Part shown: piece by piece, positions 11,714 through 14,454 of the stretch | How positions within the stretch are numbered: the first letter of the stretch is position 1 | Layout: the number at the start of each line of letters is the position of its first letter | Assembly: GCF_002777825.1 (NCBI RefSeq) | Contig: NZ_MEIR01000080.1 | Span: 124,001-188,000, forward strand | Origin: Snodgrassella alvi | GTDB lineage: Bacteria; Pseudomonadota; Gammaproteobacteria; Burkholderiales; Neisseriaceae | Direction of reading: 5' to 3' | DNA length: 64,000 bases | The notes under the pieces: model-generated | Told to the model about the DNA's origin: nothing | The model's input: only the letters and a program-made list of their open reading frames with translations | The model's database searches: none | Made by a program: the position numbers and the translations under genes

Positions 11714-11738
11714 GCATAATAACATTTTGCACAGCCCT

Positions 11739-11781
11739 AATGTTATAGGGTATCATTACTGTAATGTTATATAGTAACATT
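11739..11781 (+). promoter_or_regulatory. Two tandem Zur-like operator boxes upstream of znuCBA
   Basis: The second box, 11763-11781, is a perfect 7-5-7 inverted repeat (AATGTTA, 5 bases, TAACATT), very close to the gammaproteobacterial Zur consensus core. The first, 11739-11757, is an imperfect copy of the same palindrome (AATGTTATA...TATCATT). They stand 32 bases before the micro-ORF and 130 bases before znuC, where zinc-bound Zur would block transcription. Confidence 0.8.
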
Positions 11782-11812
11782 TATTATCAGGCTGAATCGG
11801 TAAAGGCATAAT

Positions 11813-11917
11813 ATGTTTTCTCTTTTGCTGTGTGGAGTGGGTAAACGCTTATCCTGGGTGAGCGTGATTCTGGTATTGCTGTGGTTGATGTATGCGTGGG
11901 CAGTGTGCGCATCATGA
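11813..11917 (+). CDS. 34-residue membrane micro-ORF coupled to znuC
   Basis: Short gene starting MFSLLLCGVGK with a single hydrophobic segment (about residues 13-32, SWVSVILVLLWLMYAWAV). It has a good ribosome-binding site (AAAGG, 6 bases before the ATG) and its TGA overlaps the znuC ATG (ATGA). znuC itself has no clear ribosome-binding site, so this ORF may serve to load ribosomes onto znuC, may be a functional membrane peptide of the zinc transporter, or both. It lies directly downstream of the Zur boxes. I know no named family for it. Confidence 0.55.
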   Translation: MFSLLLCGVGKRLSWVSVILVLLWLMYAWAVCAS

Positions 11918-12642
11918 GTATTCAGGTTGACAATGTTACCGTGAGCTATCGACACCGGCCAGCTATCCATCATATCAGTATCGATTTTAATTCTAATGAA
12001 ATGTGGGCAATATTCGGTCCCAATGGTGCGGGTAAATCGACACTGCTGAAAGCTATCATGCATCTTGTTCGCCTTGATAGCGGCCAGATTCGCTGGCCAC
12101 AATTGCAACGGTCTGATATTGCCTATCTGCCGCAACAATCCGACATTGATCGCAGCCAGCCAATGAGTGTATTTGAGCTTGTGGCAACGGGTTTGTGGTA
12201 TGAAACTGGTTTTTTTTCCGCAGTCTCCACAAGCATGCATCAACGTATTCTTGATGTATTAAATCAGGTAGGCATGTTGCAATATAAGGAACGCAGTATT
12301 GCCCAATTATCCAATGGCCAGTTTCAGCGTGTATTACTTGCGCGCATGCTGATTCAGAATGCTAAGGTATTGTTGCTGGATGAGCCATTTAATGCCGTAG
12401 ACGCCGCCACTACTTTTGCTTTGCTGGATATTCTCAAGGCACATCAGCAACAACACCAGTGTACCGTGATTACCGTTTTGCATGATTACGAACAGGTACA
12501 AACCTATTTTCCTAATACACTGCTGATTGCACGTGAAAAAATTGCCGCAGGGAAAACTGACAGCGTATTAACGGATCAATATCTGCAACAGGCTACAGAA
12601 GCCATGCAGCAATATGAACACAACCAGTGGTGTGACAGGTAA
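11914..12642 (+). CDS. znuC: Zinc ABC transporter ATPase ZnuC
   Basis: ATP-binding subunit of a high-affinity metal uptake transporter. Walker A GPNGAGKST is at residues 35-43, the signature LSNGQFQRV in mid-protein, and Walker B VLLLDEP follows. I set the start at MSIQVDN (11914), which fits the family and lies in the ATGA overlap with the micro-ORF; the in-frame ATG at 11881 would add 11 residues that do not look like ZnuC. The Zur boxes argue for zinc, although Mn transporters (MntABC) of the same cluster family look alike. Confidence 0.9.
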   Translation: MSIQVDNVTVSYRHRPAIHHISIDFNSNEMWAIFGPNGAGKSTLLKAIMHLVRLDSGQIRWPQLQRSDIAYLPQQSDIDRSQPMSVFELVATGLWYETGFFSAVSTSMHQRILDVLNQVGMLQYKERSIAQLSNGQFQRVLLARMLIQNAKVLLLDEPFNAVDAATTFALLDILKAHQQQHQCTVITVLHDYEQVQTYFPNTLLIAREKIAAGKTDSVLTDQYLQQATEAMQQYEHNQWCDR

Positions 12643-12646
12643 ATCA

Positions 12647-13522
12647 ATGAATATTGCCCATTTTCTTCTAGAGCCTTTTGCTGATTACGATTTCATGCGT
12701 TTTGCGCTGTGTTCAATTGTGTTTCTGGCACTGGGAACCGCACCCGTAGGTGTTTTTCTGATGATGCGTCGCATGAGTCTGGTGGGTGATGCACTGGGAC
12801 ATGCCATTTTACCGGGCGCTGCGGTAGGCTACATACTCGCAGGTTTGAGCCTGCCTGCAATGAGCATAGGCGGCTTTATAGCCGGCCTGCTGATGGCTTT
12901 GCTGGCAGGGCTGGCCAGCCGCTTTGCCAATGTGCGCGAAGATGCCAGTTTTGCCGCTTTTTTTCTCACCTGTTTGGCGCTTGGGGTGGTTTTGGTGAGT
13001 AGAGGTGGTAATAGCGTAGATTTGCTTAATTTATTGTTTGGATCCATACTTTCAGTAGACCGTGCGGCACTAACATTAGTCGCTGTTGTCAGCAGTATAA
13101 CCATGCTGGTACTGGCCGTTATCTATAGACCATTAATGCTTGAAAGTATCGACCCTTTGTTTTTACGCTCTGTAAATGGTAAGGGTACACTATGGCATAT
13201 TATATTCTTGGTGCTTGTCGTATTGAATCTGGTATCTGGTTTTCAGGCTTTAGGCACACTGATGTCCGTAGGTTTAATGATGTTACCCGCTATCAGTGCG
13301 CGTTTATGGCATAAAACCATGGGCGGCATCATGACCATAGCTGCTGCTATTGCAGTGATATGCGGTTATGTAGGCCTGTTATTGTCTTACTATATTGATT
13401 TGCCTTCTGGCCCCGCCATTATTCTGTGCTGTGGCTTAGTCTATATTTTGTCGTTATTTATTGGCAGCGAGAGCGGTATTTTATGGCGTTTATACAGACG
13501 CCAGCGCCATCATGTTGCCTGA
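12647..13522 (+). CDS. znuB: Zinc ABC transporter permease ZnuB
   Basis: Inner-membrane channel of the metal importer, family ABC-3, with about eight or nine hydrophobic segments over 291 residues and the typical MSLVGDALGHAILPG motif near residues 41-55. The start at 12647 follows the znuC stop by four bases and has an AGG-type site; an ATG at 12614 lies inside znuC and is less likely. The downstream substrate-binding gene belongs to the same transcription unit. Confidence 0.9.
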   Translation: MNIAHFLLEPFADYDFMRFALCSIVFLALGTAPVGVFLMMRRMSLVGDALGHAILPGAAVGYILAGLSLPAMSIGGFIAGLLMALLAGLASRFANVREDASFAAFFLTCLALGVVLVSRGGNSVDLLNLLFGSILSVDRAALTLVAVVSSITMLVLAVIYRPLMLESIDPLFLRSVNGKGTLWHIIFLVLVVLNLVSGFQALGTLMSVGLMMLPAISARLWHKTMGGIMTIAAAIAVICGYVGLLLSYYIDLPSGPAIILCCGLVYILSLFIGSESGILWRLYRRQRHHVA

Positions 13523-13566: not shown

Positions 13567-14454
13567 ATGAAACGTGGCTTTTTTATCTGCCTGTTAACCT
13601 TATGTCTAACGAGCTTTGCCCGCATGATTTATGCCGCACCTATACCTGTTATTACCAGCTTCAGTATTCTGGGTGATGTTACTCAGCAAATTGGTGGCGA
13701 ACGCATTCAGGTACACAGCCTGATTGGTACCGATCAGGATGCACACATGTATCAGTTGGTAAGCAGGGATTTGCGTCAAATGCGTACGGCCAAACTGATT
13801 TTGCTGAATGGTTTGGGGCTGGAACCTTTGTCTTTACAACGTGCCGCCCAGCAAAGCCGTGTTCCCATGTTTGTCGTTACTCAAGGTATTCAGCCACTGA
13901 TGATAGCTGATGATGGACACGATCACCACCAGCACACCGACCCGCATGTCTGGAATGATCCCGTTTTAATGCAAACGTATGCGCGCAATGTCGCCAATGC
14001 CCTGATTAGTGTAGATCCGCAAGGTAAAGCCTACTATCAGCAGCGGCTGACCGCCTACCAGCAACAACTTGCAGGATTAAACACATGGGCCAGCAAAATA
14101 TTTAATACCGTACCGCCAGAAAAACGTAAAGTACTGACCGGGCACGATGCTTTTGCCTATATGGCCAAGCGCTACCAGATTCAATTCATCGCCCCGCAAG
14201 GTGTAAGCACAGAAGCAGAACCGTCTGCGCGACAGGTAGCAGCAATCATCAATCAGATTCGCCGCGACCATATTAAAGCCATTTTTATTGAAAATATTAA
14301 AAATCCAAAAATGGTACAGCGGATTGCTAGTGAAACCCAAACCAGAATTAGCGGCCACCTGTATTCTGATGCACTGAGTAAAGGCGCACCTGCTGCAACT
14401 TATATTGATATGTTCCGTTATAATGTCAATGCTTTAAATGCTGCCATGAAATAA
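13567..14454 (+). CDS. znuA: Zinc ABC transporter substrate-binding protein ZnuA
   Basis: Periplasmic cluster A-1 metal receptor that passes the ion to ZnuB. Residues 1-25 form a signal peptide. A His-rich loop (DDGHDHHQHTDPH, about residues 117-129) precedes the HVWNDP block; such loops are frequent in Zn-specific receptors. Further ligands are expected in TGHDAF and in the ENIKNP region. The start at 13567 has AGGAG seven bases upstream; the longer frame from 13426 overlaps znuB. Assignment to zinc rests on the His loop plus the Zur boxes. Confidence 0.88.
   Translation: MKRGFFICLLTLCLTSFARMIYAAPIPVITSFSILGDVTQQIGGERIQVHSLIGTDQDAHMYQLVSRDLRQMRTAKLILLNGLGLEPLSLQRAAQQSRVPMFVVTQGIQPLMIADDGHDHHQHTDPHVWNDPVLMQTYARNVANALISVDPQGKAYYQQRLTAYQQQLAGLNTWASKIFNTVPPEKRKVLTGHDAFAYMAKRYQIQFIAPQGVSTEAEPSARQVAAIINQIRRDHIKAIFIENIKNPKMVQRIASETQTRISGHLYSDALSKGAPAATYIDMFRYNVNALNAAMK

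Follow-up and report, generated by a model that had tools for sequence, protein, structure and literature searches.

The short open reading frame (micro-ORF) directly ahead of znuC in the window, i.e. the whole stretch of 64,000 nucleotides that was analysed, almost certainly encodes a small membrane protein that is conserved and belongs to one clade of zinc importers. Our preferred reading, which we consider probable, is that the micro-ORF is a genuine gene and that its product is a small, single-pass inner-membrane accessory subunit, near-obligate in one ZnuCBA clade, with a function that we infer.

The micro-ORF and the znuCBA operon

The features of the region are collected in Table 1. The original prediction had described an ORF of 34 codons with an AAAGG ribosome-binding site and an ATGA overlap with znuC, and these coordinates could all be confirmed in the sequence.

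Table 1. Features of the micro-ORF, its leader and the znuCBA genes in the window
Feature	Position	Strand	Details
Promoter-like hexamers TGCACA-17-TATCAT	11728..11756	+	weak: 4 such sites in the region vs 5.9 expected
Zur-like palindrome TGTTATAGGGTATCA	11741..11755	.	1 mismatch to relaxed pattern
Zur-like palindrome TGTTATATAGTAACA	11765..11779	.	0 mismatches to relaxed pattern; 1 mismatch to GTTATNNNATAAC
Ribosome-binding site AAAGG of micro-ORF	11802..11806	+	6 nt 5' of ATG; from sequence, modest anti-Shine-Dalgarno (anti-SD) energy
micro-ORF	11813..11917	+	ATG 11813, stop TGA 11915-11917, 34 aa MFSLLLCGVGKRLSWVSVILVLLWLMYAWAVCAS; single membrane helix, N-terminus predicted cytoplasmic
ATGA stop/start overlap micro-ORF/znuC	11914..11917	+	znuC ATG 11914; conserved
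znuC, ABC ATPase	11914..12642	+	PF00005; NCBIfam comparison
znuB, permease	12647..13522	+	PF00950; NCBIfam comparison; in-frame upstream ATG at 12614
znuA, periplasmic zinc-binding protein	13567..14454	+	PF01297; NCBIfam comparison

Regarding the leader, the Zur pattern used here is a motif relaxed by one base. Allowing up to 2 mismatches, it gave 19 sites in the whole window compared to 17.8 expected by chance, thus no excess. The box at 11765-11779 lies at a near-identical position in most members of the genus. Across 161 loci, a Zur-like box (up to 2 mismatches) was detected upstream in 85, compared to 4 of 161 control stretches inside znuC, the base composition of this control being unmatched; with the motif in this form, the other 76 loci have no such box. 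The pattern of the promoter-like hexamers occurs in the region no more frequently than by chance.

The genes 3' of the micro-ORF belong to the Pfam classes of ABC ATPases, ABC-3 permeases and ZnuA-family binding proteins. The best NCBIfam models were AztB for ZnuB and AztC for ZnuA; in the case of ZnuC, the Deinococcus-type manganese MntA was best and AztA second. All three proteins stay below the NCBIfam cut-offs for AztABC (176/220, 241/280 and 272/350) and also below those for the E. coli-type ZnuABC (ZnuC 108/306, ZnuB 80/284, ZnuA 82/268). Because both the Azt and the Znu cut-offs are missed, none of the best hits listed is an equivalog model specific to this importer clade.

It had further been expected that ordinary gene callers would miss the micro-ORF. 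This holds in part: among six annotated alphaproteobacterial regions that hold the peptide, it is unlisted in three, in a gene table that is stated to be incomplete, but entered as a hypothetical protein in the other three (WP_339115353.1 in Thioclava, WP_203101353.1 in Skermanella and QEW23251.1 in a Paracoccaceae strain).

Conservation across Proteobacteria

When 61 genomes were searched using only the peptide, matches were obtained, besides the window's own, in all 13 other genomes of the same genus, 11 of them at E values of 5.9e-7 to 3.7e-16 and two at 3.6e-6 and 0.008. Loci of znuC were also gathered by ZnuC similarity, with the peptide disregarded. This was done for relatives (77 of 120, E <= 1e-40), the order (51 of 250, E <= 1e-35), the class (14 of 274) and the phylum (69 of 299, both at E <= 1e-40). 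A homologue of the peptide lies 5' of znuC in 77/77, 50/51, 9/14 and 51/69 of these loci, respectively, in samples that overlap and under a three-frame reading. Including 21 named loci and 8 regions from a plasmid collection, the total amounts to 222 znuC loci. A homologue is found directly 5' of znuC in 182 of the 222; the profile behind the 161- and 222-locus scans was iterated on the very fragments of the 161-locus scan, so that weak members lean on it. In most loci the end of the peptide and the start of znuC are at most 30 nt apart, and the farthest lies 143 nt upstream.

Named holders include Neisseria gonorrhoeae in the betaproteobacteria, Kushneria and Pseudomonas sp. in the gammaproteobacteria, and Chelatococcus, Mesorhizobium, Elioraea, Thioclava, Skermanella, Neorhizobium and Bartonella sp. 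HY761 in the alphaproteobacteria. The original prediction had proposed to look for conservation within Neisseriaceae; the frame turned out to be conserved far beyond this family. As for the scope of these samples, the set of 80 loci from which the 21 named ones come was scanned in full for the peptide, with clear matches in 6 (L179-L184); only L179-L199 entered the tree, as the others are ATPases of a more distant kind. From the plasmid records, 8 of 53 hit rows were examined. Two rows were excluded, L111 (same genome as L059) and L173 (no znuC).

Purifying selection on the frame

Within the genus, pS was 0.573 and pN 0.149 (dN/dS 0.153), and none of 500 column shuffles was as low. This sample consists of 12 of the 14 loci, all of equal length (11 distinct, 31 codons), while L030 and L035 were left out for their length. 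In the two other frames, pN/pS was 0.77 and 2.67. Variable third codon positions amounted to 26 of 31, compared to 19 for position 1 and 9 for position 2. For the other genera of the family dN/dS was 0.19, with 0 of 60 shuffles as low (37 loci, 36 distinct, 25 codons), 33 of these 37 loci coming from a single genus, in which a peptide identical with that of the gonococcus occurs. As synonymous sites are near saturation, these ratios are rough. Altogether, the purifying selection on which the original prediction had staked itself is seen, at a dN/dS of about 0.15.

These data bear on two simple explanations. The region between the Zur-like boxes and znuC could carry a conserved RNA element, or binding sites of the leader, with the frame being incidental. 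We regard this as very improbable, given that change at third positions dominates, that the other frames show the values quoted above, and that homology between classes is seen at the level of the protein. That the micro-ORF is there by chance is hardly conceivable: short ORFs are common, roughly 6 kb containing 82 that reach 25 aa or more, but the matches throughout the genus, the adjacency to znuC, the dN/dS and the presence in 182/222 loci all stand against it. Both readings are rejected by the codon substitution pattern.

Anatomy of the peptide

Counting rows with a letter in the respective column, an Arg is conserved in 99% (182 rows), a first Trp in 96% (182), a second Trp in 92% (175) and an Ala in 97% (167). 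The first Trp lies 12 residues after the Arg and the second 5 further, with the Ala directly after it; near the peptide start, Ser-Leu-Leu is in the majority. The 15 residues preceding the hydrophobic core contain 339 K/R vs 27 D/E over the 182 rows, compared to 18 vs 42 after the core. From this charge pattern and the positive-inside rule, the N-terminus should be cytoplasmic. The single hydrophobic helix of the original prediction was reproduced by an AlphaFold2 single-sequence model (one helix, residues 3-33, mean pLDDT 86), and the charge pattern and hydropathy also point to one helix. Conservation follows a helical period no more than suggestively (1 of 1000 shuffles, for the best of 24 overlapping windows, uncorrected).

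In some lineages, the N-terminal part is rich in histidine. No fewer than 26 of 182 members have 5 or more His there, compared to 0 of 364 spans in other frames; the peptide of Chelatococcus caeni (L180) is one of the His-rich ones. This is a lower bound, as the tail of L138 is visible and yet uncounted by this definition; for the His count, each peptide was started at the ATG/GTG lying farthest upstream within 75 residues, so that the true starts are unsure. The His-rich tail changes 6 times on the ZnuC tree and reaches a maximum of 18 His (L119). Since 156 of the 182 members are without it by this definition, zinc binding cannot be the general job of the peptide.

Pfam gave no family for 4 peptides, and what 36 members gave were isolated hits here and there, none better than E 0.33. 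Similarly, NCBIfam gave no family for 3 peptides; one His-rich peptide had three weak hits, the best at E 0.061 with 12.7/400 bits. The only hit to a solved structure, LptC (E 0.024), was taken as a generic match between membrane helices. No run-through segment that would fuse the peptide to ZnuC was detected in 161 loci.

Probable coupling to znuC

The micro-ORF overlaps znuC by 4 nt, in frame, in 142 of 182 loci and by 1 nt in 8, the other 32 being arranged otherwise. This conserved overlap of stop and start makes translational coupling likely. It had also been claimed that znuC is without a clear ribosome-binding site. This could not be confirmed, as the anti-SD energy 5' of znuC is no worse than that 5' of the micro-ORF. 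In the 14 genus members the mean energy was -5.96 for znuC vs -3.99 for the micro-ORF, in a model that does not include spacing, and in 37 loci of other genera it was -4.76 vs -0.83. In the latter loci the Shine-Dalgarno of the micro-ORF is thus weak, random in-gene stretches giving -2.11. Because the pairing of znuC is at least equal, this measure does not support the idea that znuC depends on the micro-ORF for initiation.

It is improbable, in our view, that the micro-ORF acts as a leader only, its translation opening or feeding the znuC start while the peptide itself is jobless. The overlaps are what such a device would show. However, a pure coupling device does not explain the dN/dS of 0.15 (and 0.19 in the other genera), the Arg and Trp residues that are near-invariant across three classes, the single topology or the lineage-specific His-rich tails, and the anti-SD energy at znuC is as good as or better than that of the micro-ORF. 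Of the coupling role offered in the original prediction, the coupling stands as likely, but as the sole function it fails to account for the constraint on the sequence.

Specificity for one clade of importers

On a ZnuC tree of 222 rows, the presence of the peptide requires 3 changes compared to 37 in shuffles, and none of 500 shuffles was as low; the tree was made with FastTree and some of its branches are long. The rows that lack the peptide, 40 in all, comprise 10 that are AztA-like, 29 more distant ATPases and one divergent case (L132). One of the AztA-like rows is Paracoccus alcaliphilus, annotated as aztA in an aztABCD operon, which is without the micro-ORF. With the tree rooted as chosen, the AztA-like rows and L132 lie inside the peptide-bearing group, so that the peptide may have been lost a single time with the importer kept.

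A profile search of 250 genomes of the order shows the same from the side of the peptide. All matches adjoin znuC at E <= 1e-5 (38/38) and at 1e-4 (41/41), while among weaker matches 43/44 do so at 1e-3 and 46/53 at 0.01. These adjacency counts are complete at E <= 1e-3; a count of 47/51, made on matches down to E 0.016, also includes G167 (E 0.029), which was chosen for adjoining znuC. By its adjacency to znuC and its distribution on the tree, the peptide is genetically tied to the transporter across species.

This linkage is also what has to be weighed against a different function. The peptide could be a zinc-starvation membrane protein apart from the transporter, e.g. a zinc buffer, a chaperone or a regulator that acts on a protease or on Zur signalling, and be linked with ZnuCBA through co-expression alone. 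Its place as first gene after the Zur-like boxes and the His-rich tails in at least 26/182 members would fit with such a protein, and a contact with ZnuB is something that we infer. Nevertheless, we consider this unlikely: copies encoded elsewhere would be expected, whereas all 41 good matches in the 250 genomes adjoin one znuC clade. Moreover, the peptide is absent beside AztA-type and other zinc/manganese importers of the same phylum, and the majority of its members have no His tail. The original prediction had offered a regulatory or stabilising membrane peptide of ZnuCBA. There is strong support for a membrane peptide that goes with ZnuCBA; it may act as a regulator, a stabiliser or a coupling device, the roles offered there.

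Proposed role of the peptide

In the case of an accessory subunit, the following mechanism can be proposed. The micro-ORF would be the first gene of an operon under Zur control, as the motif pattern suggests. Its translation would be coupled to that of znuC, so that peptide and transporter are presumably made in step. The peptide would insert with its N-terminus inside. In this orientation, the near-invariant Arg would lie where the helix meets the cytoplasm, and the two Trp close to the periplasmic side. The peptide may pack on ZnuB, aiding assembly or gating and possibly affecting transport. The His-rich cytoplasmic tail, added in several lineages, could trap zinc as it exits the pore, and the trapped zinc might either be passed on or throttle import when zinc is plentiful. 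Against this proposal, it has to be added that AztA-type and other cluster A-I importers evidently function without such a peptide.

A stronger version of this proposal can be put forward tentatively. The peptide might be a hitherto overlooked fourth subunit that is obligate throughout the clade, with the near-invariant Arg placed where ZnuB opens to the cytoplasm and a repeatedly grafted His tail that catches zinc, for hand-on or for trans-inhibition; we see this as possible, with somewhat less than even confidence. Among the metal ABC importers of cluster A-I, the peptide would then be, to our knowledge, the first accessory subunit of the single-helix kind.

Zinc uptake by such importers matters to bacteria that are zinc-starved by a host. 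If a fourth, coupled subunit is needed, structures and reconstitutions made without the peptide would be incomplete, and mutants at the head of the operon or promoter fusions may have changed the peptide unknowingly. With the repeated gain of His tails, it also becomes possible to test directly what happens to zinc as it leaves a metal ABC importer on the cytoplasmic side.

Comparison with known systems

KdpF, AcrZ and CydX are single-helix proteins of about 30-50 aa that accompany transporters or membrane enzymes as accessory components. The peptide resembles these in size, in having one helix, in being encoded or regulated with a membrane complex and in being easily missed by annotation. It differs from them in that none of 36 members has a Pfam match better than E 0.33, that its partner would be a cluster A-I zinc ABC importer and that some members carry His-rich N-terminal tails.

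AztABCD of Paracoccus denitrificans also has an extra protein beyond the ABC components, and Azt models are among the best for the proteins of the window. However, this extra protein, AztD, is reported to be a periplasmic chaperone, and the window proteins stay under the Azt cut-offs.

The operon znuCBA/mntABC of N. gonorrhoeae and N. meningitidis has the same gene order. In the gonococcal sequence, we found a 34-aa homologue with its stop within the ATGA at the znuC start. The Neisseria operon is described as consisting of three genes in the accessible text of a 2022 review (PMC9280163) and of PMC2895646, the former naming only NGO_0170-0168 for the gonococcal operon. In the meningococcus, znuA is Zur-dependent and a Zur-like site lies upstream of znuC, as reported in PMC2895646.

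The operon zniCBA of Rhizobium leguminosarum also has the order C-B-A and is controlled by Zur; it is here known from the accessible text of PMC12183173 and not from the DNA of the strain. According to this text, the Zur motif lies 153 bp 5' of the first annotated gene, a gap that would leave space for such an ORF, and an 88-bp upstream fragment gave basal reporter activity only; unlike in the window, no small ORF is described in these parts of the paper. In the literature searched, whose coverage leaves out most subscription papers, no published account of the micro-ORF was found.

Exceptional loci

The sole exception to znuC adjacency at 1e-3 is the match in G054 (L173), an ATG-less frame in a genome without ZnuC at E <= 1e-35. 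The frame ahead of it resembles DUF1826. The match looks like a remnant of the micro-ORF, as if the peptide had decayed once the importer was lost.

In the case of L132 (G591), the candidate peptide (E 0.004) is divergent and tail-less, and the N-terminus of ZnuC itself carries a His-rich stretch, HIQAHEHGVHFHG. It is as if the His tail had shifted to the ATPase.

On a Skermanella rosea plasmid (L261, 3221-8609), the micro-ORF lies between a DUF1826 gene and aztA, which is followed by genes for a permease, a binding protein, a GTP-binding protein and a WD40 protein. This is perhaps an extended zinc-starvation cluster.
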